DNA from: Bacteroidales bacterium
Lineage (GTDB): Bacteria > Bacteroidota > Bacteroidia > Bacteroidales > UBA932
Direction of reading: 5' to 3'
Assembly (NCBI GenBank): GCA_030695025.1
Contig: JAUYTX010000072.1
Span: 1-32,204 of the forward strand
Length of the DNA: 32,204 nt
Part shown: positions 2,905-27,705 of the stretch, piece after piece
How positions within the stretch are numbered: the first letter of the stretch is position 1
How the letters are laid out: every line of letters starts with the position of its first letter
Translations under genes and position numbers: made by a program
The notes under the pieces: model-generated
Told to the model about the DNA's origin: nothing
Databases searched by the model: none
Seen by the model: only the letters and a program-made list of their open reading frames with translations

Positions 2905-4503
2905 ATGAAAGTTGCTGTCATAGGTTCAGGAGTTGCAGGTCTAGCAACGGCAATCAGAGTTGCTGCACGGGGTGACATCGTTACTCTTTTCGAAAAGAAC
3001 GGAACCCCGGGAGGAAAAATCTCCCAGATTCGTGATAAGGGCTATCGTTTTGATACAGGCCCTTCGCTCTTTACTCTTCCCAATTTGGTTGACGAGTTGT
3101 TGTCAATGAATTTAAATTCAGACATTCAAACAAGTTTATCTGGTAAAAATTCCTTCAATTACTTCCGTCTGGAAAACAGCTGCAGATACTTCTACCCTGA
3201 CGGTACTGTTTTCGATTTTTTCCAGAACACACAAAAGCTAAGGGAGCAGATTGAAAATAACACAGATGAGAATTTCGAAAATATTCTCAAACGGCTAAAC
3301 CAATCGGAATTCATCTACAATCTCACATCTGACCTGTTCATATTCAACTCTTTTCACCGTTTTTCAAACTTTTTAAAAGAGGAGAACCGTTCGATTCCGC
3401 TTCATCTTCACAAGCTTGGTTTCCACAGGACAATGCACTCCGCAAACAAATCATTGTTCAAGGACAAGAGAATCGTTCAACTGTTTGACAGATACGCCAC
3501 ATACAATGGCTCTTCACCATACAAGGCACCTGCAACGCTTAACATGATATCTCACCTGGAGCACAATATTGGGGCATTTTTCCCTGAAAAGGGTATCTAC
3601 TCCATTGCAGACTCTCTTTATAAAAAAGGAGTTGAACTGGGTGTGAATTTTGAGTTTAATTCACTTGTTACTGAGGTAATTGTTGAGAAATTTAAAGGCA
3701 CAAGAGAGAAAAAAAACGAAATCTACTCAGGAGAAAATTATAATGATAATTCCGGAGATGAAAACACCAGTAATTTTGGAAAACCTTGGAGAGGTAAGCG
3801 GGCTGTTGGTGTTAGGGTTAATGGCGTTTCAAAATACTTCGATTATGTAGTATGCGACACCGATGTTAGTTATGCGGCGGAAAATATGTTCAATGGCCGG
3901 TACAGGCACCCTCTTAAAAAGAGGTTGTCAAAGCTGGAACCTTCATCTTCTGCTCTGATATTCTACTGGGGAATAAAGGGTGAATTCAACCGGCTTGATA
4001 TACATAACATTCTCTTTACCTCCAATTACAAAGAGGAGTTTGATTATCTGTTTAAAAAGAGGGAGCTGTACAGTGATCCAACTGTCTATATTTTTATAAG
4101 CAAAAAAGTTGTTGCCGGTGATGCACCTGATGGTTGCGAAAACTGGTTTGTAATGGTCAATGCACCATACAATAAAGGGCAGGATTGGCAAGCTGTAATT
4201 GCAAATGCCCGAAAAGCAATTATTCAAAAAATTGACAAAACATTCAATATAAAAATTGAAGATTATATTGATGTTGAACACATTGCATCTCCTGTAACAA
4301 TTGAAAGAAATACACTTAGCAGTAAAGGGGCTCTCTACGGCAGCTCTTCAAACTCGATGTTCTCAGCCTTTTTAAGGCACCCCAATACCTTGAATAAGAT
4401 TAAAAATCTCTCTTTTACCGGAGGCAGTACCCACCCGGGCGGTGGAATTCCTCTCTGCCTGGCAAGTGCCATTATTGCCGAAAAAGAGATCTACAAACTT
4501 TGA
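2905..4503 (+). CDS. crtD: CrtD-like carotenoid desaturase (CrtI family), probable 1-hydroxycarotenoid 3,4-desaturase
   Basis: This second CrtI-family flavoprotein has 532 residues and opens with the dinucleotide-binding motif GSGVAG, followed by FEKN, GGKISQ and DTGPSLFTLP. It ends with GGSTHPGGGIPLCLASA, the version of the C-terminal signature seen in Bacteroidota CrtD-like desaturases rather than in CrtI. In saproxanthin- and flexixanthin-type pathways CrtD introduces the 3,4 double bond after CruF hydrates the chain end; a cruF-like gene lies downstream, supporting this. Assignment to CrtD over another CrtI paralogue is inference. Residues about 262-298 form a low-complexity, Asn/Lys/Glu/Gly-rich insertion (for example NYNDNSGDENTSN) that probably is a surface loop. 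The gene follows crtB after 2 bp; the operon then pauses for a 212-bp gap with tandem repeats. Confidence 0.78.
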   Translation: MKVAVIGSGVAGLATAIRVAARGDIVTLFEKNGTPGGKISQIRDKGYRFDTGPSLFTLPNLVDELLSMNLNSDIQTSLSGKNSFNYFRLENSCRYFYPDGTVFDFFQNTQKLREQIENNTDENFENILKRLNQSEFIYNLTSDLFIFNSFHRFSNFLKEENRSIPLHLHKLGFHRTMHSANKSLFKDKRIVQLFDRYATYNGSSPYKAPATLNMISHLEHNIGAFFPEKGIYSIADSLYKKGVELGVNFEFNSLVTEVIVEKFKGTREKKNEIYSGENYNDNSGDENTSNFGKPWRGKRAVGVRVNGVSKYFDYVVCDTDVSYAAENMFNGRYRHPLKKRLSKLEPSSSALIFYWGIKGEFNRLDIHNILFTSNYKEEFDYLFKKRELYSDPTVYIFISKKVVAGDAPDGCENWFVMVNAPYNKGQDWQAVIANARKAIIQKIDKTFNIKIEDYIDVEHIASPVTIERNTLSSKGALYGSSSNSMFSAFLRHPNTLNKIKNLSFTGGSTHPGGGIPLCLASAIIAEKEIYKL

Positions 4504-4525
4504 AGTGAATAACATAAACCAAATT

Positions 4526-4665
4526 GCTTGAACCGAATTATTTGAATAGAATTGCTTGAACCGAATTATTTGAATATAATAGCTTGAACCGAATTATTTG
4601 AATATAATAGCTTGAAACGAATCATTTGAAACAAACTGCTTGAAACGAATTACTTGAATCTAATC
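4526..4665. repeat. 14-bp tandem repeat array (10 units, 28-bp higher-order period)
   Basis: Ten head-to-tail copies of a degenerate 14-mer lie in the gap between crtD and cruF, with rough consensus RYTTGAANNNAATN. Alternate units differ (GCTTGAACCGAATT versus ATTTGAATATAATA), giving a clean 28-bp period: GCTTGAA recurs at 4526, 4554, 4582, 4610 and 4638. Fourteen is not a multiple of three and TGA codons recur, so the array is not coding. It fills most of the 212-bp gap 4504-4715, which otherwise holds AT-rich sequence with no clear hairpin or consensus promoter. Confidence 0.9.
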
Positions 4666-4715: not shown

Positions 4716-5408
4716 ATGAAAAAGAATTTCATACAAAAAATATTCAATGTGGTCTCATACGAAGAGCTGCCAAAGACATTTCTCATATTCTACTCTGTGG
4801 GGCTTTTGCTGTTTCTTCTTCCTTTTACCCGAGAACTCTTTATCACATTGACTCCTCTCTCTCTTTTACTGGTAAATATTGCCCTTTTATATCACCACCG
4901 CCACTGGAATTTTCGTTTTATTCTTTTTATCTTCACAGTTACAATATCTTCTTTTCTAATTGAGGCTGAGGGTGTTCGTGGTGGTGTGCTTTTTGGTGAA
5001 TATCTCTATCTTGGCACTTTAGGTCCCAAACTCTTTGCAACTCCGCTTGTTATTGGGCTCAACTGGTTGATGCTGACATATTGCAGTGCTGCGATTATGG
5101 AGTATATAAGGAGAAGATTGGCGGGTACGGTAGATATTGCGATTAAGATTCTTGGGGGTGCTCTTTTAATGGTGACTTATGACATTGTTGTTGAAATGGT
5201 TGCGCCGGGAATGGGCATGTGGGAATTTGATCAGGGGTACCCGCCCGCTAAGAACTTCGTGATGTGGTTTGTGATGGCAACTGTATTTCACATTTTGTTT
5301 GCCGCTTTCAAAATTAAACCTGTGGGAAAACCTGCCATTGCGCTATTTTTTGCGCAGATTGCATTTTTTCTTGTGATTTCGCTCTTTATGGCTGTAGAAA
5401 TATTTTAA
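4716..5408 (+). CDS. cruF: CruF-like carotenoid 1,2-hydratase (Caroten_synth/DUF422 family membrane protein)
   Basis: This 230-residue integral membrane protein has about six or seven hydrophobic segments. It matches the DUF422 (carotenoid biosynthesis protein) family through EAEGVRGGVLFGEYLY, then LGPKLFATPLVIGLNWLML, and the late DIVVEMVAPGMGMWEF motif with its conserved acidic residues. Family members hydrate the psi end of acyclic carotenoid chains, making the 1-hydroxy group that a glycosyltransferase can use. The context agrees: a CrtD-like desaturase upstream, an acyltransferase and glycosyltransferase downstream. The start ATG at 4716 is the only sensible one and directly follows the AT-rich gap, so the gene could have its own promoter, though none is obvious. 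The family is confident; substrate detail is inferred. Confidence 0.82.
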   Translation: MKKNFIQKIFNVVSYEELPKTFLIFYSVGLLLFLLPFTRELFITLTPLSLLLVNIALLYHHRHWNFRFILFIFTVTISSFLIEAEGVRGGVLFGEYLYLGTLGPKLFATPLVIGLNWLMLTYCSAAIMEYIRRRLAGTVDIAIKILGGALLMVTYDIVVEMVAPGMGMWEFDQGYPPAKNFVMWFVMATVFHILFAAFKIKPVGKPAIALFFAQIAFFLVISLFMAVEIF

Positions 5409-5425
5409 TGGCAAGATAAAACGAT

Positions 5426-6088
5426 ATGATGATTAAGGGAAAATATACTCCATTTACAGGCTGGTTCTTTGAGCAATATTCAAAGTGGCACATGAAAAAG
5501 GTGTATCGCTCTATTAGATATATTGCGGTAAACCCTCCGGGTGAAGATTTATTTATGTCTGGTACGGGGAGGCCTCTATTACTTGTCTCAAACCACTTCT
5601 CTTTCTGGGATGGCTTCAATCATATTATGCTCAACAGACGCACCTTTAAGCGAAAAATGAACATAATGATGCTGCACGAGCAGCTCTCCAATCGTAAGTT
5701 TTTGCGTTATACCGGTGCATTCTCACTTGATAAGGGTAACAGAGGGGTTATTGCAGGGTTACGACACTCGGTTGACCTCCTTAAAGATAGAAACAACATG
5801 CTTTTAATCTTTCCCCAGGGTGAAATTCAGTCTCTCTATACTCGCAATTTTGTTTTTGAAAGGGGGCTTGAATTTATTGTGGCTAATACTCCCGGCATTC
5901 AGATTATATTCAATGTCAACCTTTTAAACTTCTTCTCTGAGAGGAAACCTACTCTTACAATGTATCTTAAGGAGTATATTCCTCAAAAAGATGATAAAAT
6001 TGCACACCTTGAGCAAGAGTTTAACCTTTTTGCTGTTGAATGTTTCAACAGTGAGAGCCCAAGAGAAAAAGGAGTTAAAATAATATGA
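5426..6088 (+). CDS. PlsC-like acyltransferase, probable carotenoid glycoside acyltransferase
   Basis: This 220-residue protein belongs to the lysophospholipid/glycerol-phosphate acyltransferase family. It carries the catalytic NHxxxxD box as NHFSFWD (residues 56-62) and a FPQGE block (129-133) in place of the usual FPEGT. There is no clear transmembrane segment, so it is probably a peripheral membrane protein. Because it sits 17 bp after cruF and overlaps a glycosyltransferase gene by four bases (ATGA), the likely job is acylation of the sugar on a carotenoid glycoside, comparable to CruD of green sulfur bacteria or CrtO of staphylococci. Phospholipid synthesis is the alternative. The start could equally be the second ATG at 5429. 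Confidence 0.75.
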   Translation: MMIKGKYTPFTGWFFEQYSKWHMKKVYRSIRYIAVNPPGEDLFMSGTGRPLLLVSNHFSFWDGFNHIMLNRRTFKRKMNIMMLHEQLSNRKFLRYTGAFSLDKGNRGVIAGLRHSVDLLKDRNNMLLIFPQGEIQSLYTRNFVFERGLEFIVANTPGIQIIFNVNLLNFFSERKPTLTMYLKEYIPQKDDKIAHLEQEFNLFAVECFNSESPREKGVKII

Positions 6089-7257
6089 CCATTTTCGGCT
6101 GGATACTGTTATTTTTCCTGACAATCCGCCTGATTGTCTCCTTTGTGAATTTTATCTGGACCTATCTGGTTAGAAAGGAGTTAAATAATTATTGCACAGT
6201 TAAAAAGAACCAAGCAGATAATGAGTGTAGCTCAGAATGTGTAACTATTACAGGAGATTCTGTGCCCAATATTAGTCTTCCCTCCTGGTCAATTCTAATA
6301 CCTGCCCGTAATGAAGAAAATTCAATCGGAAACCTTCTTGAAGATATCTTGACTCTTAAAGATAGACCATGTGAGGTTATAGTCTATGATGACAAATCAA
6401 CTGACCGCACAAGGGAGATAGTTCTGGGATTTCAAAATAGGCTTCCTGAACTCAGGCATATCGAAGGTGAGCTTCCCGAAGGTTGGCTCGGAAAGAACAA
6501 CGGCTGTCACTCTCTCGCCTCGGTTGCACAGGGACGATATCTACTCTTCCTTGACGCCGATGTTAGGATAGACTCAGATATGGCAACCAAATATCTCAAT
6601 TACGCAATAGAGAACAAACTCTCGTTGCTATCGATATTCCCTGCACAAATTCTTGAGAACAGAGCCGGCAAAATATCAACGCCCATAATGAATTGGATTC
6701 TACTGTCTCTTCTCCCCCTACCTTTGGTGAAAAATTGCAGCTGGAGCTCCTTTTCTGCAGCCAATGGCCAGTTTATGCTCTTTAACACAGATGATTACAA
6801 TCTTCTTAAACCCCATGAAAAATTCAAAATGAGTCGCGCTGAAGATATTGAGATAAGCAGATATTTTAAAAACGAGCGTAAACACATTGCGACACTGGCA
6901 GGCGATAAATCTATCAGGTGCAACATGTACAACCAGCTTAATGACGCAATCAATGGCTTTTCCAAGAATGTTTTCTACTTTTTTGGGAATTCTCCTTTTC
7001 TAACAATTATATTTGCAATCCTTACAACACTCACTCCCCTTTGGCTGTTTGTGTTTAATGGAGTTATTCCGGGATTGGTTTCTGTTACGGCAGTTCTTTT
7101 GATGAGAATCTTTGTTTCACTTGCAAGTAAACAAAGTGTGGGAGATAATCTAAAATATCTTTTTCATCAACAGGTTGTTTTTATGCGTATAGTTGCCAAA
7201 GCTGCGGTAAACCGTAAAAAGAGAGTTGAAATATGGAAAGGAAGAAATATATACTGA
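6085..7257 (+). CDS. Family 2 glycosyltransferase, probable carotenoid glycosyltransferase (CruC/CrtQ-like)
   Basis: This 390-residue membrane glycosyltransferase starts with one transmembrane helix (about 4-28). The GT2 catalytic domain follows: PARNEE (73-78), DDKSTD (102-107), the metal-binding DAD triad (157-159) and an ED pair, RAEDIEI (251-257). Two or three C-terminal helices lie at about 296-350. The stretch PEGWLGKNNG (131-140) resembles that of CrtQ- and CruC-type enzymes, which attach a sugar to carotenoid hydroxyl or carboxyl groups. It overlaps the acyltransferase start by four bases, and its 3' end overlaps the next gene by 25 bp, so this is one tightly packed transcript. The sugar donor and exact acceptor are unknown. 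It could instead make another glycolipid, but the context favours the carotenoid. Confidence 0.78.
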   Translation: MTIFGWILLFFLTIRLIVSFVNFIWTYLVRKELNNYCTVKKNQADNECSSECVTITGDSVPNISLPSWSILIPARNEENSIGNLLEDILTLKDRPCEVIVYDDKSTDRTREIVLGFQNRLPELRHIEGELPEGWLGKNNGCHSLASVAQGRYLLFLDADVRIDSDMATKYLNYAIENKLSLLSIFPAQILENRAGKISTPIMNWILLSLLPLPLVKNCSWSSFSAANGQFMLFNTDDYNLLKPHEKFKMSRAEDIEISRYFKNERKHIATLAGDKSIRCNMYNQLNDAINGFSKNVFYFFGNSPFLTIIFAILTTLTPLWLFVFNGVIPGLVSVTAVLLMRIFVSLASKQSVGDNLKYLFHQQVVFMRIVAKAAVNRKKRVEIWKGRNIY

Positions 7258-9772: not shown

Positions 9773-12760
9773 TTACGGCTTCTTAACAGTTACGTTGATA
9801 GTTCCTGTCAGTTTCTTACCGAAGATATCAGTAATTTCAACTGTCAATGGAACAACTACGTCTGACTGAATAGTAGCAACTGCGTTAGTAGCTTTAATTG
9901 TAAAGTCAAGTGGGTTAGCTGGTATAGCAGCAGTAGCTATTACACCGACAGCAGCACCTGCATGACCTGCAGTTACAGCAACTAAGTGAGCATTAGCAGA
10001 AGTATTCAATACTTTCACACTTGCAACACCAACAGCTGTAGCATTAGCAGCGTCAATTCTTGTGTCAACAGCAGCAGCTATAGCGTTTGCAGCGTCACGT
10101 CCAAAGGCTTTAAGGTTAAATCCTAGGTAGTCTTGAGCTTTGAAGTAGAACGAAAGTGGAAGTTCTCTAACCAGGTCACCATTAATAACCTCAAGAGTTG
10201 TAGGAAGTGCCCATCCTGCAGGCTTAGCCGCAGTATTTGCAAGTACACTACCTTCTCTAACTTCACTCTTAGCTTGTACTCTGATAGTCTCTAGGTTAGT
10301 AAAGTTTAGAACGTTACCAAAGTAGTAGTATCTAAGTATTGCGCTGTAAGGTACGCTACTGTACATAGTGTTGTTATTGATAACAAATCTGTCTGTGTTT
10401 CCTGTAAGAACACCAATTCCGTTTACAAGTGGGTTTGCAGGAGCCGGAGCAGCTGGTGCAGGAGTAGTGATAATTAATCTCCAGTTTGCAAGTGGAACAA
10501 GTTGTGTAGCAGGAGCTACTATTGCAGGATCATACAGATATTTGTAAGCATTCCAAATGTCATAGTATGCATTTGTAGCATCAGTTTGAGCTGTTGCACC
10601 TGCATAAACACCAGGAACAGGGTATGTACCGTAAACAGTTAGAAGATTACCGTCAAACAGATTAGGTTTCTTCTCAATCAGTTGATTAAGAGTAGCTGAA
10701 ATGTTTGGATTAGCAATTGTGAACGGCATGCTGTAAGTTGTAGTTGCTGTAGCATAAGCACGACGATCAGTGAACTTAAGAACTGCATTATAGTTAGCAG
10801 GCATGCCTGTTAGGCTGTTAGGAAGTGCAGTAGCTTCGTTAAATGTAAATCTGATCTTACGGATTTGCTGAATTGAAGCAAGAGATGTAAATATTGGTTT
10901 ACCTACAACACCTGCATCAAATGGATCAACAAGTACATTGTTGTTAGCATCAAGATATTCGTAAGTTACGCCCGGTATAGCAACTGCAGGAGTCAAATAT
11001 GTAAGTTGTACTTCAACGTTAGTCGCCTGATTTCTCCAAAGTTCAGTTTTACCAACTGCATCAAGTTGACTGAAGAAAGCTGTTGAATTTGAAGGTTCTG
11101 CAAGAAGAACTGTTACTTGTCTCTCATCAACAGTTGGAGTTGCCGGATCGTCAGTTCTAAGAACATAGTTGAACATTGGATTAGCAGTAAGTGTGTTGTT
11201 AAGAGCTGAGTAGAATACTACAGAGATACCTCTTGTCTCAAAATACTGACCTCTCCAGTCAAATGTCTGAAGTTTGAAAGGAATTACCCTGTCATTAAGG
11301 TTAGTAACAGTAACAGCAGTATTTGCAGTTGAAACTGTAGTTCTTGATCTTGTAGTTGCATTTTCAGGAGCTATGGTTACAAAACCTTCAACATCTGAAT
11401 TACCAGGAGTAGCTACAATAGAAACAGCAGTTTTATAGAAATCAGTGCTCTTAAGCATAGCACCTGTACCTGTATTCAGGTAGAAATCAAGTAGGTCTTT
11501 TGAAGCACCAATTGCAACATAGGCTTTCCAAGGATAAGTAGCTACCAATGGATCCGGTGCAACAGTTGCAACAACTTTTGCAGGGTCCCAAGTGTAGGCA
11601 GTATTTACATCCTGATTAACCTGTACTGCGTACTGGTAACCTGAAATTACTTCACGACCACCTTTAGTTGCACGAACTGCAAGTTCGAAAGATTCACCGG
11701 TAGCATTTGTGAACACCGGATAACCTGCAACAGCAGCTGGGTTGTTAGTGGCTAATCTTGCTGTATTGGCAATAAGTTTAGTCGCAGCTTTAATAGTCAA
11801 AGTGTAAAGACCATTAGATGGAGCAGCAGCAAATTGGTGGAATGCTCCGCTGAAACCATTTTCAGGAAGAACACCAGCCTCTGGCTGAAGAGCATATTTT
11901 GTTCCATCTCTCTTAATCACGTCAAATGTATAACCTGTAAGGATAGCTTGAGCAGGATTAATGATTAGTGGAAGTTTACCCTCTGCGCGAAGAAGTTGAT
12001 CCCAAGTTACACCAGCAAAAGTGAAAGCTGTAGTTACACCGGCAGCTGTAGCAGTTACCGGGTTAACGGATGCATTACCATCTGTAGATGCAGGAACATA
12101 ACCATAGTTGAATTTAATTTTGGTAGTTCCGATAGGAGAAACAACACTTACAAGATCACTCTTAAGGAAAGTATCTTCATCAACTGCTACATTGTAGGTT
12201 GTGAAAGTACCGTCAGTGTTCTTGATTGTAATTTGAAGTTTCTTGGTTACATCGTTATAAGCAATGATAGGAACATATACGCTTGTAGCAACGCCGTTGA
12301 TGGTAATGAAACCTTGTGCGTTTGCACCAAACTGGTCAGTTGTAAATTTAGCATACACCGGCTGTCCTGCAACAAGAATACGAGCAGGAGTACCACCTTG
12401 AGTAGTAACAACTGTCCAGTAACCTTGAGCATCTATACCGATAATAGGTGTGAAACCAGTTGCACCAGTTGCACCAGTTGCACCAGTTGCGCCAGTTGCG
12501 CCGTTTGTACCATGGTTCAATGAAATGGTTGTATTATCCGAGAAGGTAATAGTGTAACCAGTTGAAGTAGTAGCAACGGTTTTAATTAGTTTACCTGAAG
12601 CAATTGCTGAATTAAGTGCAGTAATTGCATTTTTATTGGATGTGATTTGTGCCTGAAGGTCTGCGATGTCCTCAGAGTAATCCTTTTGGCACGATCCCAA
12701 CGAAATCATAAGCGTGCATAAAAGCACACAAATACCGAAGAATGTGAATTTTCTTTTCAT
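9773..12760 (-). CDS. Large Ala/Thr-rich surface lipoprotein with collagen-like Gly-Ala-Thr repeats
   Basis: This is a 995-residue protein of unknown function. The N-terminus is a lipoprotein signal (hydrophobic run 7-20, lipobox LGSC, lipidated C24). Next come a short coiled coil (about 30-56, DLQAQITSNKNAITALNSAI), a strand-rich linker, and five to six Gly-Ala-Thr triplets (about 87-102). The remaining roughly 890 residues are beta-rich, very high in Ala, Thr, Val and Asn, and contain no further cysteine, with a Pro-Ala linker (TPAPAAPAPANP) in the C-terminal third. The coiled coil followed by a Gly-X-Y stretch resembles the start of several Bacteroidota surface proteins. With a consensus promoter and its own terminator it looks like an abundant monocistronic surface product, possibly an S-layer or matrix protein; that role is inference. 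No catalytic motif is visible. Confidence 0.85.
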   Translation of the reverse strand: MKRKFTFFGICVLLCTLMISLGSCQKDYSEDIADLQAQITSNKNAITALNSAIASGKLIKTVATTSTGYTITFSDNTTISLNHGTNGATGATGATGATGATGFTPIIGIDAQGYWTVVTTQGGTPARILVAGQPVYAKFTTDQFGANAQGFITINGVATSVYVPIIAYNDVTKKLQITIKNTDGTFTTYNVAVDEDTFLKSDLVSVVSPIGTTKIKFNYGYVPASTDGNASVNPVTATAAGVTTAFTFAGVTWDQLLRAEGKLPLIINPAQAILTGYTFDVIKRDGTKYALQPEAGVLPENGFSGAFHQFAAAPSNGLYTLTIKAATKLIANTARLATNNPAAVAGYPVFTNATGESFELAVRATKGGREVISGYQYAVQVNQDVNTAYTWDPAKVVATVAPDPLVATYPWKAYVAIGASKDLLDFYLNTGTGAMLKSTDFYKTAVSIVATPGNSDVEGFVTIAPENATTRSRTTVSTANTAVTVTNLNDRVIPFKLQTFDWRGQYFETRGISVVFYSALNNTLTANPMFNYVLRTDDPATPTVDERQVTVLLAEPSNSTAFFSQLDAVGKTELWRNQATNVEVQLTYLTPAVAIPGVTYEYLDANNNVLVDPFDAGVVGKPIFTSLASIQQIRKIRFTFNEATALPNSLTGMPANYNAVLKFTDRRAYATATTTYSMPFTIANPNISATLNQLIEKKPNLFDGNLLTVYGTYPVPGVYAGATAQTDATNAYYDIWNAYKYLYDPAIVAPATQLVPLANWRLIITTPAPAAPAPANPLVNGIGVLTGNTDRFVINNNTMYSSVPYSAILRYYYFGNVLNFTNLETIRVQAKSEVREGSVLANTAAKPAGWALPTTLEVINGDLVRELPLSFYFKAQDYLGFNLKAFGRDAANAIAAAVDTRIDAANATAVGVASVKVLNTSANAHLVAVTAGHAGAAVGVIATAAIPANPLDFTIKATNAVATIQSDVVVPLTVEITDIFGKKLTGTINVTVKKP
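12455..12508 (-). repeat. 9-bp tandem repeats encoding the collagen-like Gly-Ala-Thr segment
   Basis: Six consecutive 9-bp units (ACCAGTTGC on the plus strand, the last two degenerate) start at 12455, 12464, 12473, 12482, 12491 and 12500. They encode Gly-Ala-Thr on the minus strand. Gain or loss of a unit would keep the reading frame and change only the length of the repeat region. Confidence 0.9.
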
Positions 12761-14842: not shown

Positions 14843-14930
<88 letters not shown>

Positions 14931-20400: not shown

Positions 20401-20853
20401 GTAGGTTATGTAGGGGTCGTTCATATCAACCCAGTACCCCATCTGCTCGGTAAGGCTCTCCCACTCTTTGGTATATTTCATAACCTCTCTTCTGCAGGCG
20501 GCATTATACTCATCTACAGATATTTTAGTGCCGATATCCTCTTTAGTTATCCCAAGCATTTTCTCTACTCCAAGTTCAACCGGAAGACCATGTGTATCCC
20601 AGCCGGCCTTACGTTTTACAAGGTAACCCTGCTGAGTCTTGAATCGGCAGAAGACATCCTTTATGGCCCTTGCCATAACATGGTGAATACCAGGCATACC
20701 GTTTGCCGAAGGTGGCCCCTCATGAAAAACAAACACGGGCGCTCCTTCCCTGGCTTTAAGGGTTTTGGAAAAACACTCCTCTTTGTTCCATTTCTCTAAA
20801 ATTGAGCGGTTTAATTCCGCAAGATCTAAATTTTTGTACTCGGCAAACTTCAT
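17416..20853 (-). CDS. ileS: Isoleucyl-tRNA synthetase, type 2, with swapped GxHH signature
   Basis: This 1145-residue class I synthetase charges tRNA-Ile. Length and sequence fit the eukaryote-like IleRS2 group used by many Bacteroidota. Visible landmarks are HEGPPSANGMPGIHHVMAR (44-62), with the ATP-binding HIGH motif present as GIHH (55-58); GWDTHGLPVE; TTPWTLPSNTA of the editing domain; GADPLRWYML; and KMSKR (693-697). The anticodon-binding domain and the long type-2 C-terminus follow. IleRS2 enzymes resist mupirocin, and the GxHH arrangement has been linked to even stronger resistance. The gene starts at 20853, a few bases after a consensus promoter, and heads the minus-strand group with guaD, dksA-like and lspA. 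Confidence 0.95.
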   Translation of the reverse strand: MKFAEYKNLDLAELNRSILEKWNKEECFSKTLKAREGAPVFVFHEGPPSANGMPGIHHVMARAIKDVFCRFKTQQGYLVKRKAGWDTHGLPVELGVEKMLGITKEDIGTKISVDEYNAACRREVMKYTKEWESLTEQMGYWVDMNDPYITYDNRYIETLWHLLKEIYKKGFLYKGYSIQPFSPAAGTGLSTHELNQPGCYKDVKDTTCVAQFEVIRDSISEKLFKSIKNTTSKELPLYILAWTTTPWTLPSNTALCVGPNITYKMVQSFNPYTGVETVYIIAEELIPQHFNPKGAEMPFEEYRHGDKVIPYRVFGEFKGDEICGAEYKQLIPWVNPGEGAFKVIKGDFVTTSDGTGIVHIAPTFGADDLRVARQNSVPALMVKDNDGLMQALVDRSGKFYKIEDLDPAFVSSNVNSASYAEYAGRFVKNSYDSSLSESDVTLDIDLAVMLKQQGLAFKIEKHIHSYPHCWRTDKPVLYYPLDSWFIKTTAVQERMIELNNTINWKPESTGSGRFGKWLENLQDWNLSRSRYWGTPLPVWRTEDSSEEICVGSAQELFNLIDDSVKAGFMKSNPFRDKGFVPGDFSKKNYEKIDLHRPYVDDIVLVSKTGKPMKRELDLIDVWFDSGAMPFAQEGLDKLGRSEFGQSADFIAEGVDQTRGWFFTLHAIATMVKDDVAFKTVISNGLVLDKEGNKMSKRLGNAVDPFKTLSAYGADPLRWYMLTNAQPWDNLKFDEGGVDEVRRKFFGTLYNTYSFFALYANVDKFTNNQPQVPAERRPEIDRWIISLLNTLIKEVTEHYENYDVTAAGRKIQDFVNDNLSNWYVRLNRKRFWGGEADEDKLSAYQTLYTCLENVAILSAPIAPFFMERLFLDLNKVSGKHKESSVHMTMMPSYDPSLIDKDLEERMELAQRSSSMLLALRRKVNIKVRQPLAKVLIPVLDDSIKEQFEMIKQLVLGEVNVKEVEYIHDTTGLITKKIKPNFKVLGKRYGKQMKEISNAFAGFTQEQINQVEISDTYILKLDSGDVELTLEDYEISSEDMPGWLVSTEGKLTLALDITITDSLRREGVARELVNRIQNLRKDSKFEVTDKIRVEIEPLNEISDALTEYRQYICNQTLAREIEMNANITGGSKIEWDEGELNIKVVKI

Positions 20854-20875
20854 TTTGGAATTTTTTGTGAATTTG

Positions 20876-20883
20876 CAAAGATA
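20876..20883 (-). promoter_or_regulatory. -7 box of the ileS promoter
   Basis: TATCTTTG on the minus strand matches TAnnTTTG exactly, 22 bp before the ileS ATG, implying a leader of under 20 nt with no room for a T-box or other leader riboswitch. The -33 region is only a T run. Confidence 0.55.
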
Positions 20884-20914
20884 CGATTATTCACTACTTT
20901 TGAAAAAAAATGCT

Positions 20915-21454
20915 TTGGGATATAACTTCAACCCCGTTGATATTGCTATAATGGTTATTCTCATACCGGCAGTAATTGGTGGTATCAGAAAAGGATTCAT
21001 AAGACAGGTAGCGGCACTTGGTGCTCTTATACTTGGTATTTGGGCCGGATGGCACTTTTCATCATTGGTTTCAGGATGGATTAAGCCTCTGTTCGGCTCT
21101 GAAAGTAATCTCATAGATATTTTGTCTTTTGCTCTGATTTTCGTTGGAGTTTTAATTTTGGTTAACCTTATTGGCAGAGCTGTGGCCGGAATTGTTAAAC
21201 TGGCACTGCTGGGATGGCTTGACAGAATTCTGGGGGTTCTCTTTGCAATTGTGAAATATGCATTTGTTCTGAGCATTTTTATTCACATTCTTAACTCTCT
21301 TGACAAGCTGTACCATTTTTTACCTGCTGAAAAGCTTGCCCAGTCGAGATTATATGATTTTGTATCTTCGATTGCACCGGCGGTATTCCCTTATCTGCAA
21401 AATCTGCAAGACAACACCGGCGGTCTTGAGCATATTTTTAACAAAGTCACATAA
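20915..21454 (+). CDS. cvpA: CvpA family membrane protein
   Basis: This is a small inner membrane protein with four hydrophobic segments. It fits the CvpA family (named for colicin V production) through VDIAIMVILIPAVIGGIRKGFIRQVAALG split over the first helix and loop, a later FVGVLILVNLIGRA helix and the LGWLDRILG motif. No in-frame ATG lies in the right place. The frame is open back to 20765, but that extension overlaps ileS on the other strand. TTG at 20915 (179 residues) puts the GIRKGF motif at about residue 23, as in other members; TTG at 20900 or ATG at 20951 are alternatives. CvpA is needed for colicin V release in Escherichia coli, and here it directly precedes a colicin-V-type exporter, which may or may not be coincidence. 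Confidence 0.78.
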   Translation: MGYNFNPVDIAIMVILIPAVIGGIRKGFIRQVAALGALILGIWAGWHFSSLVSGWIKPLFGSESNLIDILSFALIFVGVLILVNLIGRAVAGIVKLALLGWLDRILGVLFAIVKYAFVLSIFIHILNSLDKLYHFLPAEKLAQSRLYDFVSSIAPAVFPYLQNLQDNTGGLEHIFNKVT

Positions 21455-21530: not shown

Positions 21531-21684
21531 TTTGTCATCCATTTTTTCATATTACCATGTAGATTCGCCGGTGGATTAGCAGTCCTCTGTGTGTGAGAAT
21601 TTTTCGGGGGCAGGGAAAAGTGGAGTTAGGGCGAGGGCTGCTTATCCTATTTTAAGTATTCTGTTTTGGATGTGGGGGCAGGCA

Positions 21685-23805
21685 ATGAGGAGATCAAAAA
21701 AAATCAGACAGTATGACAGAAGTGATTGCGGAGCTGCGTCACTGGCATCGGTAGCTGCTCACTACGGAGCAGATATTCCACTTGCTGAGCTAAGGGTCAA
21801 AAGCGGGACCGACTCATCTGGTTGTACTGTAAGAGGATTAATTGAGGCAGCACAGCATTTCGGCTTTAATGCCGAAGGTTTTAGAGGAGATGTTGCTTCT
21901 TTGTCAAAGATTCCTCTGCCTGCCATTCTTCATCTTAGAAAACCCGATGGCTGGCTCCACTTTATTGTCCTCTACGGAGTGACAAAAAAGGGATACAAAA
22001 TAATGGACCCTGCAGAGGGAAATTTTCAGCGGGTAAGTAAAGAGTTGCTGTTAAAAGAGTGGAGCGGCTTGCTGATTCTTTTTGTTCGTGGCAAAGATTC
22101 TAAAGAGGTTGTTTCACAGCTGAGAGTGTATAAGAGACTGATAATGTTAATAAAGGCAAACTCAGTAAGATACATTACAATTCTAATGCTCTCACTGGTT
22201 AGTATTGCTACATCTCTGGCAGTATCACTTTTTGTGAAGCAATTGCTGGATTCTATTATTCCGTTGGCAAATTCAGAAAATCTGTTCAGATATGCAATTA
22301 TACTATCAATTGTATTGGTTGTGACAGCTGCAGTATCATACGTTAGAGGTTGTCTTATGGTAAATGTCACTGTTGATACAGATAAAAGATTGATATCAGA
22401 CTATTTATCTCATCTTCATAAGTTACCATTAAGTTTTTTTCGCTCTCTTAAAACGGGAGAGTTGGTTTCCCGGATCAACGATGTATTTAGGATAAGAAAT
22501 TTTATCACAGAGACATTAACCGGGGGCTTTATTGCACTCCTGACACTCATCTTTGCATTATCTATATTGTTTGTTATGGACATTAACCTTGCGTGGCTTT
22601 GTACAGCTTTTATCCCTCTCTATTTATCAATTTATATAATTCACGACAGGGTAGCAAGGCCGGTTGCGAGAAGGGTAATGGAGAGTGCCTCAAAGTTTCA
22701 AAGCAGTGTAATAGAGAGTATAAGGTCTGCCGAAACAATTAAAAATATGGGATTGGAAAGTATCTCTTTTAACGACAATATTGGGAAATTGACAATCTTG
22801 AATAAAAATATTGCCTCATCCGGAAGAATCTCAGTAACGGCTTCAGGGGCGGGAGAGTTCACATCCGGTTTGCTCACTGTATCTGTATTAATAATCGGAG
22901 GTGCTGCAACAATTAAAGGGTTGATGACACCTGGTGAGCTTGTCTCATTCTTTGCAATTACTGCCCTCTTCTCAGCTCCTCTTATGCAACTTGCTTCTTC
23001 TATATCATCTGTTAGAGAGGGTATTATTGCCGCTGACCGGTTGTTCGACATACTGGAGTGTAAAACTGAAAACGAACCATCTGAAAATAAAACAGCTGAT
23101 AATGAAGCAAATAAGAACAAGTCGAATCCTTATGAAATAATTGAAAGCGAAATAAATCGATCAAAAATTGTAGTTGAAAATGTTAGCTTCGGATATCCGG
23201 GAAGAGGGCTGATTATCAATAATCTTTCGTTTGAAGTCTGCAGCGGTGAAATAGTTGCATTAACCGGGCGAAGCGGTAGCGGTAAAAGTACTATTGCTAT
23301 GATGCTGATGCATCATATCTCTCCCAAAAGTGGCAATATCATGTTCAACGGTATAGATTACAGAGCATTCGAAAAAGATATATGGAGAAGAATAGTCTCA
23401 ATAGTCCCTCAAAATCCCGGGCTATATGGTAATACTCTGCTTGATTGTATAATTTGCGAGGAGGATAGAGATAACGATAGAGATTTTGAATATTTTACAG
23501 AGATAATGGCTTCATTGGAGCTGGATAAACTGGCAGAGTCGCTCCCCTGCGGATTTGCTTCACATCCGGGAGAGGGGGGAACAATGCTTTCCAGGGGTCA
23601 ACAGCAGAGAATTGCCTTTGCCAGGGCCGTTTTGCGTAAACCAAAAGTTCTGATAATGGATGAGGCAACATCCTCTTTAGATGAAGCAACTGAGCAGCTT
23701 TTATGCAACGTTACTTTAAAATTGCGGGAGAAAGGGGTTGCTGTATTATTGATTACTCACAATGATACAACCCTAAGAATTGCAGACAAAATTATCTCCA
23801 TTTAA
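21685..23805 (+). CDS. C39 peptidase-containing ABC exporter (bacteriocin/colicin V type)
   Basis: This 706-residue protein combines a leader peptidase with an exporter, cutting double-glycine leaders while pumping the peptide across the inner membrane. The N-terminal C39 domain has a full catalytic set: C15 (QYDRSDCGAASL), H92 (GWLHFIVLYG) and D108 (IMDPAEG). The membrane domain with about six helices covers roughly residues 155-460. The ATPase has Walker A GRSGSGKS (528-535), signature LSRGQQQR (635-642), Walker B VLIMDE (655-660) and H692. An Asn/Lys/Glu-rich linker at about 467-490 joins the last two parts. I chose ATG 21685, right before the C39 domain; the open frame to 21589 adds no family-like residues. 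Two leader-peptide genes follow at once, making the function very likely. Confidence 0.92.
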   Translation: MRRSKKIRQYDRSDCGAASLASVAAHYGADIPLAELRVKSGTDSSGCTVRGLIEAAQHFGFNAEGFRGDVASLSKIPLPAILHLRKPDGWLHFIVLYGVTKKGYKIMDPAEGNFQRVSKELLLKEWSGLLILFVRGKDSKEVVSQLRVYKRLIMLIKANSVRYITILMLSLVSIATSLAVSLFVKQLLDSIIPLANSENLFRYAIILSIVLVVTAAVSYVRGCLMVNVTVDTDKRLISDYLSHLHKLPLSFFRSLKTGELVSRINDVFRIRNFITETLTGGFIALLTLIFALSILFVMDINLAWLCTAFIPLYLSIYIIHDRVARPVARRVMESASKFQSSVIESIRSAETIKNMGLESISFNDNIGKLTILNKNIASSGRISVTASGAGEFTSGLLTVSVLIIGGAATIKGLMTPGELVSFFAITALFSAPLMQLASSISSVREGIIAADRLFDILECKTENEPSENKTADNEANKNKSNPYEIIESEINRSKIVVENVSFGYPGRGLIINNLSFEVCSGEIVALTGRSGSGKSTIAMMLMHHISPKSGNIMFNGIDYRAFEKDIWRRIVSIVPQNPGLYGNTLLDCIICEEDRDNDRDFEYFTEIMASLELDKLAESLPCGFASHPGEGGTMLSRGQQQRIAFARAVLRKPKVLIMDEATSSLDEATEQLLCNVTLKLREKGVAVLLITHNDTTLRIADKIISI

Positions 23806-23862
23806 CTTACTATAAGCGAAATAAAGATATAGGTGAATTACCAGATAAAAAGTGAATACATA

Positions 23863-23880
23863 GGGAGGGTGCACACTCCC
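23863..23880 (+). promoter_or_regulatory. Near-perfect palindrome before the peptide genes
   Basis: GGGAGGGTGCACACTCCC is an 18-bp palindrome with one mismatched pair. A second weak hairpin (CCAC at 23890-23893 with GTGG at 23905-23908) follows. They sit in the 125-bp gap between the exporter gene and the first leader-peptide gene. With no T run behind them they may be an operator or an RNA stability or processing site that sets peptide levels apart from exporter levels. Confidence 0.5.
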
Positions 23881-23930
23881 GGCGGAAATCCACGCGCATA
23901 ATCTGTGGGTAAACTAAAAAAATAGAAACC

Positions 23931-24119
23931 ATGAAAGAGCATTTGAGAGATGAGTGGGGGTTGAAGACTCTTGACGAAAATGAGATGCAGATAAGCGGAG
24001 GAATGTCGCTCCGGGAACTCTGGTTATTGTTGAACATGCTGGGTGATGCCATAAAAAAGGCAGAAAAATACTGGCCGGCATTTAAAGATGGATTTCAAGC
24101 AGGTTGGGAGGAGGCGTAA
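23931..24119 (+). CDS. Double-glycine leader peptide 1 (putative bacteriocin-like or signalling peptide)
   Basis: This 62-residue product has a classic double-glycine leader: 24 charged residues ending LDENEMQISGG, with hydrophobic residues at the positions before the GG that C39 peptidases read. Predicted cleavage after G24 leaves a 38-residue core starting MSLRELWLLLNMLGD. The core has no cysteine, should form an amphipathic helix, and contains a GFQAG (GxxxG) motif at 54-58 before a terminal WEEA. The gene lies 125 bp after the exporter gene, and its stop overlaps the next peptide gene by one base (TAATG). I do not recognise the core as any named bacteriocin; antimicrobial or cell-cell signalling roles are both open. 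Confidence 0.82.
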   Translation: MKEHLRDEWGLKTLDENEMQISGGMSLRELWLLLNMLGDAIKKAEKYWPAFKDGFQAGWEEA

Positions 24120-24334
24120 TGAACAGTATAGATATTAGCTGCAGTTCGTTAACTGCTCTTAGCTTCGAAGAAAGTTGCAGAATTACAGGTGGTTCCGATG
24201 GATGGGACTACGACATTGCCAATGCTGTTGGCAGGGGAGTTGGATACGGGGTTAAAAAAATGTGGCGCTTGTTTAAGTTTTTATGCAATAATATGAATGA
24301 AATGCAGGAGAACACTCAGGTGATTTACAAGTAA
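24119..24334 (+). CDS. Double-glycine leader peptide 2 (putative partner peptide)
   Basis: Starting at the ATG at 24119 (the frame is open to 24104 but that start lies inside peptide 1) gives 71 residues. The 25-residue leader ends LSFEESCRITGG, so cleavage is predicted after G25. The 46-residue core begins SDGWDYDIANAVGRGVGYG and contains two overlapping GxxxG motifs (G38-G42, G40-G44), then a basic aromatic stretch KKMWRLFKF and a polar tail. One cysteine (C56) remains in the core, so no internal disulphide is possible. A purine-rich site, GGGAGGAGG, inside the end of peptide 1 is a good ribosome-binding site. Coupled translation suggests the two peptides are made in equal amounts. The function is not recognisable from sequence. 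Confidence 0.82.
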   Translation: MNSIDISCSSLTALSFEESCRITGGSDGWDYDIANAVGRGVGYGVKKMWRLFKFLCNNMNEMQENTQVIYK

Positions 24335-24357
24335 TACCGTATTATATTTTGTTATTT

Positions 24358-24391
24358 TTGGGAGTTTTGTAATAGAAAAAAATTATCTTTG
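24358..24391 (+). promoter_or_regulatory. Promoter candidate directly before the TolC-like gene
   Basis: TATCTTTG (24384-24391) is a perfect TAnnTTTG, with TTG at 24358-24360 upstream at a 23-bp spacing. The ATG at 24398 lies only 6 bp after the box, so a transcript from here would be nearly leaderless. Confidence 0.5.
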
Positions 24392-24397
24392 CGCATT

Positions 24398-25717
24398 ATG
24401 AAAATTTATTACAAACTCCCTTTATTACTACTCCTTATCCTACCATCTCTCCTCAGCGGTCAGAAGAGGTGGAGTCTTGAGGAGTGCATCAGGTACGCCT
24501 GGGATAATAACCTGCAAATACAGCAGCAGGAACTTGCGGTAGAACAAAGCGAGAATAATCTTCAACAGGCAAAGATGAACTATATCCCTTCTCTTAATGC
24601 ATCCTTTAGCCATTCCATGAACTGGGGACGTTCGGTGAACCTTCAGACTCTGGAAATTATTGAGAATAAGCTTACCCAAAGCACAAATGCAAATGCGAGG
24701 GCAGGCATAAATCTCTTTGAGGGTTTCACAAAGGGTAACGAGGTTAAAAGCAGGACTCTTCAGAAGGAGATCTCCACAGAAGAGGTAAGTAAAATTAAAA
24801 ACGACATTTCGGTTGAAATTGCCAGGCTATACCTCCAGGTACTTCTTTCGAAAGAGATTGTAAAAACGGCAGATCAGAGCATTCTAAGTGTCGAACAACA
24901 GGTAGAGAGAACCAAAAAAATGGTTGATGCAGGCAGCCTTGCATATAGCTCTTTGCTTGAAATTGAGGCGCAACTCGCTGCTGAGAGAGTGCAGGTTGTT
25001 AATGCCAAAAATCAATTGAAAAGTGTTTTGTTGAGTCTTGTACAACTTCTCGATCTTGAAAACACTAACGATTTTGATATTCAGGATGTTAATGTCGATT
25101 TTATGATTCAGGGCTTTAGCGGAGAGTCTGTTGACAACCTTTATCAACTTTCGCAGTCATTACCTCAGATTATTAGCGCCGAACTCAAGCTTAAGAATTC
25201 TGATATCCAGCTCTCACTGGCTAAAGGAAGAGCATTTCCCGTCCTCTCTTTCTCTGCCGGCTACGGAACATACTACAGCGACAGTCGCGATCAGCCTTTC
25301 ATGGATCAGTTTAATGAAAACAGAAATCCATCTATGGGTTTTGGGCTCAGCATCCCAATTTTCAATAATTCCCAGACAAAAACTGCAATTAAAAATGCTA
25401 AGTTGGGTGTAAGGAGTTCGCAGATCGAGGTCAAAAGCAAAAGACAGATGCTCTACAAAGAGATTCAGCAAGCCAACAATGACGCATTCGCATATTACGA
25501 GCGTTATCTGGCTTCGGAAAGAAATGTTACTGCTATGCAGGAGTCATTCAGATATGTCCAGCAAAAATTTGATGTAGGTGCTCTTAATGCAACTGACTAC
25601 TCTGTTGCGAAAGCAAATCTGTTTAAAGCACAATCTGAGTTTTTCCAATCGAAATATCAGTATGTGTTTCAGCTGAAAATACTCGACTTTTACAAAGGGA
25701 AACCAATATCTCTCTAA
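24398..25717 (+). CDS. TolC-like outer membrane efflux protein
   Basis: This 439-residue protein has a signal peptide (hydrophobic 8-19, likely cut near SGQ at 20-22) and two outer-membrane-efflux-protein repeats. The first starts WSLEECIRYAWDNNLQIQQQELAVEQSENN. The second region includes SLPQIISAELKLKNSDIQLSLAKGR and ends with QQKFDVGALNATDYSVAKANLFKAQSE, a standard TolC-family signature. Trimers of such proteins form the outer-membrane channel of type I secretion and efflux systems. I start at ATG 24398 rather than the TTG at 24389, which falls inside the -7 box. The periplasmic adaptor gene begins 11 bp downstream, so the two are cotranscribed. Position after the exporter and cargo genes suggests it serves peptide export. 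Confidence 0.92.
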   Translation: MKIYYKLPLLLLLILPSLLSGQKRWSLEECIRYAWDNNLQIQQQELAVEQSENNLQQAKMNYIPSLNASFSHSMNWGRSVNLQTLEIIENKLTQSTNANARAGINLFEGFTKGNEVKSRTLQKEISTEEVSKIKNDISVEIARLYLQVLLSKEIVKTADQSILSVEQQVERTKKMVDAGSLAYSSLLEIEAQLAAERVQVVNAKNQLKSVLLSLVQLLDLENTNDFDIQDVNVDFMIQGFSGESVDNLYQLSQSLPQIISAELKLKNSDIQLSLAKGRAFPVLSFSAGYGTYYSDSRDQPFMDQFNENRNPSMGFGLSIPIFNNSQTKTAIKNAKLGVRSSQIEVKSKRQMLYKEIQQANNDAFAYYERYLASERNVTAMQESFRYVQQKFDVGALNATDYSVAKANLFKAQSEFFQSKYQYVFQLKILDFYKGKPISL

Positions 25718-25728
25718 ATTTAACTAAG

Positions 25729-26985
25729 ATGAAAAAGAAAAATATCAAATGGATTATTGCAATTGCATTTGTACTGATAGTAGTTCTTGCTTTTTACGGA
25801 AACAGCAAGAAGAAAAATGTAACAACAGTAACTGTCGAAAAGATCAGCAGAAGAAGCATTGTTGAGGTTATTCCTGCCAATGGTAAAATAAAGCCCGTAG
25901 TTGAGGTTAAAATCAGTCCGGATGTGTCGGGAGAGATTGTTGAACTCAATTTTAAAGAGGGTGATCATATCAAACGTGGTGATCTTATAATTAAGATAAA
26001 GCAGGATGTTTACATCTCAATGCGTGAAAGAGCAGAAGCCTCTCTTAACTCTGTAAAAGCACAGCTTACACAGCTTCAGGCACAGTTTGTACAGATTGAG
26101 CAGAGTTACAACAGGACTAAGACCCTTTATGAAAAAAAGGCCCTGTCCGAGGCTGAATATGAGAGCGCCCGCTCTCAATACCTTATGGCAAAAGAGCAGA
26201 TTAAGGCCGCCGAATTCAACGTCAAATCGTCAAGTGCCGCTCTGAAAGAGGCCGTAGAGAACCTGACAAAAACAGTCATTTATGCTCCTATGGATGGAAT
26301 CATATCCAAGATGAGTGTAGAAAAGGGTGAAAGAGTTGTGGGTACAAGCCAGATGGCAGGAACAGAAATGCTTCGTATTGCCAATTTTGACAACATGGAG
26401 GTTCTGGTTGACGTTAATGAAAATGACATCATCAGAATTAAACAGGGAGACACTGCATCTATTGAGGTTGACGCATATCCAAACAGGAAATTTGCAGGAG
26501 TTGTTACTCAAATTGCCAACTCTGCAAAAAATATCGGATCGGCTATTGAGCAGGTGACAAATTTTGAGGTTAAGATTTATATTCTTCAGGATTCCTATTC
26601 TGACCTCTCTGCTACAGGGCGTAATCCTTTCCGTCCCGGCATGTCTGCATCTGTATCAATTCAGACTGCAAGAAAAGACAGCATTCTCACAATTCCTCTT
26701 CAGGCAATTACTACCAGAACTGACCTTATACCCGACAGTGTTAAAACCAAAATGGGTATCAATGAGTCTATGGAGCAGGTATTTATTGTCAAAGAAGACA
26801 ACACTGTTGAGGTGCGGGAAATTACTACCGGAATTCAGGACCTTGCAAATATTGAGATTCTTACCGGTCTTCAGGATGGTGAATCAATTGTTGTAGGACC
26901 ATTTTCAGCTATAAGCAAGACTCTTAAAAAGGGTACCGCAGTTGCTCCTGAATCTCCTGACAAAGATAAAGGGAAGAAAAAATAA
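25729..26985 (+). CDS. Periplasmic adaptor subunit (MacA/HlyD-like membrane fusion protein)
   Basis: This 418-residue protein has one N-terminal membrane anchor (about 8-24). A split lipoyl-like domain follows, first half PDVSGEIVELNFKEGDHIKRGD and second half VIYAPMDGIISKMSVEKGERV, around a coiled-coil hairpin (about 95-175). Beta-barrel and membrane-proximal domains come next, and a Lys-rich tail ends the protein. The pattern is nearer to MacA than to HlyD. MacA-like adaptors normally work with a MacB permease, but no macB follows; the next gene is tsaB. The only ABC transporter at hand is the C39 exporter upstream, so a tripartite exporter with it and the TolC-like protein is the likely arrangement. 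That pairing is inference. Confidence 0.9.
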   Translation: MKKKNIKWIIAIAFVLIVVLAFYGNSKKKNVTTVTVEKISRRSIVEVIPANGKIKPVVEVKISPDVSGEIVELNFKEGDHIKRGDLIIKIKQDVYISMRERAEASLNSVKAQLTQLQAQFVQIEQSYNRTKTLYEKKALSEAEYESARSQYLMAKEQIKAAEFNVKSSSAALKEAVENLTKTVIYAPMDGIISKMSVEKGERVVGTSQMAGTEMLRIANFDNMEVLVDVNENDIIRIKQGDTASIEVDAYPNRKFAGVVTQIANSAKNIGSAIEQVTNFEVKIYILQDSYSDLSATGRNPFRPGMSASVSIQTARKDSILTIPLQAITTRTDLIPDSVKTKMGINESMEQVFIVKEDNTVEVREITTGIQDLANIEILTGLQDGESIVVGPFSAISKTLKKGTAVAPESPDKDKGKKK

Positions 26986-26997
26986 CCATTCAACTGA

Positions 26998-27705
26998 ATG
27001 AAAAATAGCCCCGTTCTGCTTTTTATTGAGACCAGTACCGAAGTCTGTTCTGTTGCCCTCTCAATGGGTAGTGAGTTAGTGAGCGAAGTTGTGGTAAAAG
27101 AACCAAAAGCCCACGCAAGATTAATTGCACCAATGATTGAGAGTGTTCTGAAAGAGTCGGGTATTGATATTTCAGGAACAGATGCTGTTGTTGTAAGTGA
27201 AGGGCCTGGTTCTTATACCGGTTTAAGGGTTGGTGTCTCAATTGCCAAGGGTTTATGCTATGGGTCAGGCAAACCGCTGATAGCTGTGGGGTCACTTGAT
27301 TTACTTGCAAACATTGCTTCAAAAAAGTACTTTCAGGAGAGCTCTCTCTATAGAATTATCCCAATGATTGATGCCAGACGGATGGAGGTGTATTCTGCTG
27401 TTTATGATAGTAATGCAGTAAGAAAAAGCCCTATTGAGGCCGTTATTGTTGACGAAAACAGCTTCAGGGATATTCTTGACCTGGGCTTAACTCTGTTCTG
27501 TGGAGATGGGACAGAAAAAGTACGTGGCGTAATTAATCATCCAAATGCTCTTTTCACAGATATAAATGCAAGTGCCGGAGGCATGCTTGCTCCGGCACTT
27601 GTTAAATTTCATGAATCTAAATTTGAAGATGTGGCCTATTTTGAGCCTTTCTATCTTAAAGATTTTGTTGCCGGAATATCAAAGAAGAGTCTTCTTGGAT
27701 TATAA
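26998..27705 (+). CDS. tsaB: tRNA threonylcarbamoyladenosine biosynthesis protein TsaB
   Basis: TsaB is the non-catalytic ASKHA-fold partner of TsaD in making t6A at position 37 of tRNAs that read ANN codons. The 235-residue product shows LLFIETSTEVCSVAL at the N-terminus, and the hallmark EGPGSYTGLRVGVSIAKGL (68-86). PMIDARRMEVYSAVY follows near the middle. Length is normal. It follows the adaptor gene after 12 bp, so it may be cotranscribed with the export genes although the functions are unrelated, and it converges on the TlpA-like lipoprotein gene with only 15 bp between stops. Confidence 0.93.
   Translation: MKNSPVLLFIETSTEVCSVALSMGSELVSEVVVKEPKAHARLIAPMIESVLKESGIDISGTDAVVVSEGPGSYTGLRVGVSIAKGLCYGSGKPLIAVGSLDLLANIASKKYFQESSLYRIIPMIDARRMEVYSAVYDSNAVRKSPIEAVIVDENSFRDILDLGLTLFCGDGTEKVRGVINHPNALFTDINASAGGMLAPALVKFHESKFEDVAYFEPFYLKDFVAGISKKSLLGL

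Follow-up and report, generated by a model that had tools for sequence, protein, structure and literature searches.

We identified a three-gene cassette in the 32,204-nt Bacteroidales window (the whole stretch of DNA analyzed here), comprising a C39 peptidase-ABC exporter gene and two small double-glycine (GG) leader peptide genes, pepA and pepB. We propose, with moderate confidence, that this cassette serves a secreted, membrane-active two-peptide pair of class IIb-like character. Two-part pairs are known as Gram-positive bacteriocins; the present one is inherited like a core gene and lacks an immunity gene at its locus.

Locus organization and exporter

A first-pass annotation of this DNA had described five genes on one strand, from the exporter gene through the two peptide genes to tolC and hlyD, and their order, range, and strand were borne out (Table 1). 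In Pfam searches, the exporter carries a C39 peptidase domain (PF03412, E 4e-32) together with ABC_membrane and ABC_tran domains, and a C39 domain with Q/C/H/D residues joined to these two domains is the definition of a peptidase-containing ABC transporter (PCAT). The peptidase residues Q9, C15, H92, and D108 are all present and conserved across orthologs, the sole exception being N in place of D108 in one remote homologue from a different context. The Walker A lysine, Walker B glutamate, signature serine, and H-loop histidine of the ATPase are likewise intact and conserved in orthologs, in agreement with the annotation's statement that every catalytic residue is present. The closest solved structure was PCAT1 (4ry2, E 2e-95); PCAT1 and ComA, the closest solved transporters by sequence, differ from the present exporter in being Gram-positive and handling other cargo. 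The adaptor contains HlyD_D23/HlyD_3 domains, and the ORF downstream of it is presumably tsaB, from recognition of its sequence and position. The annotation had also called the locus complete, which holds as far as the export of two GG peptides is concerned, but it missed the RNA elements preceding pepA and the exporter gene.

Table 1. Coordinates of the features of the locus in the window
Feature	Coordinates	Strand	Basis and remarks
cvpA (Colicin_V production protein family)	20765..21454	+	PF02674, E 4e-29; upstream boundary of the cassette
Exporter leader stem-loop with U-rich tail	21574..21647	+	RNAfold and alignment; outer stem 21579-21587/21633-21641
C39 peptidase-ABC exporter (PCAT), 706 aa	21685..23805	+	Pfam; similarity to PCAT1 4ry2; conserved active site
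P1 palindromic hairpin, GGGAG-GGUGCACA-CUCCC	23863..23880	+	Covariation
H-type pseudoknot directly after P1	23881..23909	+	P2 23881-23884/23895-23898; P3 23889-23893/23905-23909
pepA	23931..24119	+	62 aa: 24-aa GG leader (23931-24002) and 38-aa core; invariant G54xxxG58
pepB	24119..24334	+	71 aa: 25-aa GG leader (24119-24193) and 46-aa core; invariant G38xxxG42
Bacteroidota-type -7 box, TAnnTTTG	24384..24391	+	14 nt before the tolC ATG; putative own promoter of tolC-hlyD-tsaB
TolC-family outer-membrane channel	24398..25717	+	PF02321 (OEP), E 2e-48; ancestral neighbor of hlyD-tsaB
MacA/RND_mfp-type periplasmic adaptor (hlyD)	25729..26985	+	TIGR01730, 186 bits against a cut-off of 95
tsaB (presumed)	26998..27705	+	Recognition and synteny; downstream boundary of the ancestral cluster

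Peptide genes and their cores

The stop codon of pepA overlaps the start codon of pepB (TAATG), and neither peptide matched Pfam or NCBIfam at E 1. Within the genus, every complete gap between the exporter gene and tolC contains these two GG ORFs in unchanged order. In alignments of 23 rows (A2 and A3), the only invariant residues besides the start and the leader GG are G54 and G58 of PepA and G38 and G42 of PepB, giving one GxxxG motif in each peptide; the genus-level PepA motif reads EKYWPxFxxGFxxGWExA, and the pepB leader of locus L046 ends in AGG. Close pairs gave dN/dS values of approximately 0.03–0.17 for both peptides, with pN/pS of 0.09–0.11 in the cores and 0.21–0.29 in the leaders, indicating that purifying selection is strongest in the cores. 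Identity to L033 is 90% and 80% for the two peptides and approximately 57% for the exporter. Because the two ORFs recur at the same place in congeners with low dN/dS, an invariant leader GG, and an invariant GxxxG, we regard pepA and pepB, on comparative grounds, as real genes rather than chance ORFs. The annotation's proposal of two tiny GG-leader genes thus survives the checks that it had named, since the leader GG is invariant in the alignments of relatives and the substitution pattern supports coding. No further PepA-type cargo was found in the genome of origin.

Class IIb bacteriocins have GxxxG motifs in both partners as their hallmark (PMC6382864, PMC12765074). Here, the GG-leader genes adjoin each other in one operon and both cores carry the motif. 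The cores are amphipathic, with a best moment of 0.61 versus 0.37 for shuffled sequences, and AlphaFold predicted, with modest confidence, a helix-Pro-helix for PepA and a single long helix for PepB.

The few sub-threshold NCBIfam matches included NF038035 and NF038034, in which PepB came closest to lactococcin G-alpha/enterocin 1071A and PepA to the beta peptides; the curated cut-offs were not reached, the best E among members being 0.08 and 0.035. NF038034 exceeded its cut-off in 0 of 25 genomes, and the genome-wide search was dominated by noise from an unrelated protein. A core-only hhalign comparison, picked after these matches had been seen, scored 17.75 for PepB-alpha versus 8.1 ± 2.0 for permuted columns (0/150 as high) and 16.6 for PepA-beta versus 8.3 ± 1.9 (1/150), with hhalign probabilities of only 24% and 17%. 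The swapped alpha/beta pairing scored lower. Comparison rows for enterocin 1071 came from plasmid pEF1071, and those for lactococcin G were entered by hand. We read these scores as a weak resemblance of the predicted cores to lactococcin G/enterocin 1071, not as homology. The annotation had not recognized the cores as known bacteriocins; this stands insofar as no Pfam or NCBIfam family was matched over its cut-off, and it is qualified by the GxxxG motif in both cores and the weak alpha/beta resemblance.

Distribution and origin of the cassette

A search of 60 relatives placed the locus at the same position in congeners, with ileS, cvpA, the exporter gene, a gap of approximately 550 bases, tolC, hlyD, and tsaB. 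PepB profile matches were obtained in all 25 genus genomes and in 158 of 399 sampled family genomes, representing 12 of 26 genera; an order-wide sample of 393 genomes yielded four PepB matches, all within the family, and no peptide pair outside it. Eight loci from further genera retain the exporter gene, pepA, pepB, tolC, hlyD, and tsaB, with cvpA or ileS on the exporter side in seven of them and a rearrangement in L148. The gene order that the annotation had proposed to look for in relatives is therefore kept both in congeners and in these eight loci, and pepA and pepB form an adjacent 1:1 pair of fixed order in all loci examined. The named hosts are environmental MAGs (Rikenellaceae UBA12406, HGW-Bacteroidetes-5, -7, and -8, UBA5548, Bact_08, and others), which we take to belong to GTDB family UBA932. 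A tblastn search of plasmids with PepB returned no convincing match.

Distances between IleS proteins and between C39 exporters were correlated (r 0.92; 0/2000 permutations), and the locus is therefore vertically inherited. From these comparisons we conclude that the cassette is a vertically inherited, core-like trait of an uncultured anaerobic Bacteroidales family, a pattern that argues against an ordinary accessory bacteriocin.

Two genera of the family without the peptides (loci L177 and L178) have tolC-hlyD directly after cvpA, in L177 with tsaB as well, and other families have tolC-hlyD-tsaB with no adjoining C39 gene. Nearly all congeners for which the tolC start could be resolved have the TAnnTTTG box where the window has it; its distance of 14 nt from the start codon implies a nearly leaderless predicted transcript, conserved in the genus. 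Since cvpA and tolC adjoin in the absence of the cassette, the outgroup clusters are free of C39 genes, and tolC has a putative promoter of its own, the distinctive unit, as judged from gene order, is C39-pepA-pepB, lying between cvpA and an older tolC-hlyD-tsaB cluster. The annotation's picture of one complete five-gene export locus accordingly holds for the adjacency of all the parts but not for TolC and the adaptor, which are not dedicated by origin. Their adjacency suggests that the exporter most likely uses both.

RNA elements upstream of pepA and the exporter gene

Nearly all loci examined have a palindromic hairpin and, directly after it, an H-type pseudoknot ahead of pepA. Across 24 sequences, the P1, P2, and P3 pairings of the element upstream of pepA each exceeded all 1000 between-species permutations, P1 and P2 also by pair counts, and a pseudoknot search scored 26.3 versus 7.8 ± 1.5 for shuffled sequences. 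The species of the window has P2 with 3 of 4 pairs, under the limit of the search script. A covariance model (R1) matched 23863-23915 of the window (E 9e-15) and found one strong copy per genome, ahead of pepA; of the additional matches among congeners, the best (G014:C21, E 2.5e-4) falls within a coding sequence. A short-pattern search for GGGTGCACACTC found one exact copy in the genome of origin, and no Rfam family was matched at its gathering score. A multi-gene riboswitch was considered and rejected, as no genome has a second strong copy. In further genera, six loci scored above shuffles for the same layout; L149 displays it by eye outside the scored stretch, and the score of L155 is unremarkable. 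Several of these hairpins are perfectly palindromic, e.g., GTGAATGCGCATTCAC.

The element can begin within a few bases of the exporter stop codon and is therefore probably intercistronic, which favors a role in translational control or mRNA processing over that of a promoter. It fits a DNA operator less well, given that L042 and L052 keep the stem but not the loop palindrome.

For the stem-loop preceding the exporter gene, outer-stem complementarity was 26.1 when matched versus 17.6 ± 1.1 when permuted (maximum 21.0 of 500). It covaries but is less conserved than the pepA element, and it is accompanied by promoter-like boxes that are weak in this species. This stem-loop may function as an attenuator or as a small RNA.

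Interpretation and alternatives

We propose that the PCAT recognizes both GG leaders and would cut after the GG, and that the 38- and 46-residue helical cores are then exported, most likely through the neighboring MacA-type adaptor and TolC. Outside the cell, the two amphipathic helices may pair by their GxxxG faces and, by analogy with class IIb biology, act jointly on membranes, those of nearby competing bacteria being the most likely target. Peptide expression would be set by the hairpin-pseudoknot RNA before pepA together with pepA-pepB translational coupling. We favor this two-peptide reading because the PCAT is intact, both peptides have GG leaders, and they form an adjacent 1:1 pair; the invariant GxxxG, amphipathic predicted helices, core-strongest purifying selection, and weak resemblance to lactococcin G/enterocin 1071 in matching alpha/beta order point the same way.

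Doubt about a membrane weapon arises from the locus itself, since none of those examined has a further gene, and thus an immunity gene, in the interval from cvpA to tsaB, although an unlinked one may exist, and from the core-like inheritance of slowly evolving cores. Slow core evolution and a core-like distribution are unusual for arms-race toxins, and the antimicrobial or signaling role suggested by the annotation stays hypothetical. Bacteroidetocin producers also lack an immunity protein (PMC6671954), so its absence here does not exclude toxicity. The lactococcin G group uses BacA as its receptor (PMC12765074), and 60 of 61 genomes encode it; we therefore rejected the idea that producers need no immunity because they lack this BacA/UppP target.

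The same inheritance pattern would suit a conserved, non-toxic signaling pair, exported as pheromones of the ComC/BlpC type and sensed by the producers: every congener has the peptides under strong purifying selection, no immunity gene is present, and an RNA leader of their own hints that expression is regulated. Against it, the locus encodes neither a sensor kinase nor a receptor, and an amphipathic GxxxG helix pair is atypical of pheromones; we consider this reading unlikely. A self-directed envelope factor, with a periplasmic or surface housekeeping role possibly involving the older TolC and adaptor, would also explain core-like vertical inheritance without immunity and the position within an envelope-related cvpA/tolC/hlyD cluster; two genera of the family have the cluster and live without the cassette, we know of no precedent, and we judge this reading quite unlikely. 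A narrower version of the two-peptide reading, in which the pair is truly homologous to lactococcin G and attacks the BacA/UppP of target cells, draws on the alpha/beta order and the exceeded permutation tests but seems improbable, given that the statistics fall short of homology, GxxxG by itself can drive part of the score, and producers retain BacA. More speculatively, and in our view rather doubtful, the cassette could be a lineage-defining, immunity-free two-helix pair acting as a signal or on the producer's own envelope, under a new, possibly dimerizing, palindromic-hairpin pseudoknot RNA found only before these genes.

The two-peptide reading can be set against three known systems. Like lactococcin G, enterocin 1071, and enterocin C, the present pair has adjacent GG-leader genes, a neighboring C39-ABC gene, and GxxxG in both cores; it differs in its Gram-negative hosts, lack of an immunity gene, core-like inheritance, probable adaptor/TolC route, RNA pseudoknot, and scores below the family cut-offs. 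Bacteroidetocins are class IIa-like single peptides of Bacteroidales with a GG leader of 15–16 aa, at least two cysteines, a PCAT, a TM protein, and mostly thiol oxidoreductase genes (PMC6671954). The present pair shares the GG leader, PCAT, order, and absence of immunity, but it has no conserved cysteine, 24–25-aa leaders, and neither TM protein nor oxidoreductase genes. Colicin V (microcin V) is a GG peptide exported by C39-ABC, adaptor, and TolC (PMC10352776), the same logic as proposed here, although our locus has a MacA/RND_mfp adaptor from the older tolC-hlyD-tsaB cluster and two small peptides instead of one.

A literature search of limited coverage found no account of this pair or of any Bacteroidota class IIb system, in line with the annotation's suggestion of an undescribed system and weak as evidence of novelty. 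A commentary on a class II atlas mentions candidates across Bacteroidota and does not name this pair. If the two-peptide reading is correct, the class IIb principle would reach Gram-negative Bacteroidota, in which a family of uncultured anaerobes would hold it as a core-like trait, with approximately 150 natural variants of the pair in the sampled genomes and one more uncatalogued structured RNA. Core inheritance with missing immunity makes a weapon, signal, or housekeeping role directly testable.

Other C39 loci and features of the window

The genome of origin has a second, distant C39-ABC gene (L144, 239-2329), and at locus L146 of the sister genome another GG peptide, METTFEKLNDQEMINVVGG... 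(4489-4632), comes before that gene (4763-6853). G034, a family member without pepA and pepB, encodes, next to its C39-ABC gene, a GG-leader peptide (L061, 8249-8488) that includes a hydrophobic, lipobox-like segment. Elsewhere in the window, a tRNA gene (14846-14930, minus strand) overlaps a probably spurious 116-aa ORF, and a 995-aa protein (9773-12760) has an N-terminal DUF4988 as its sole Pfam match.
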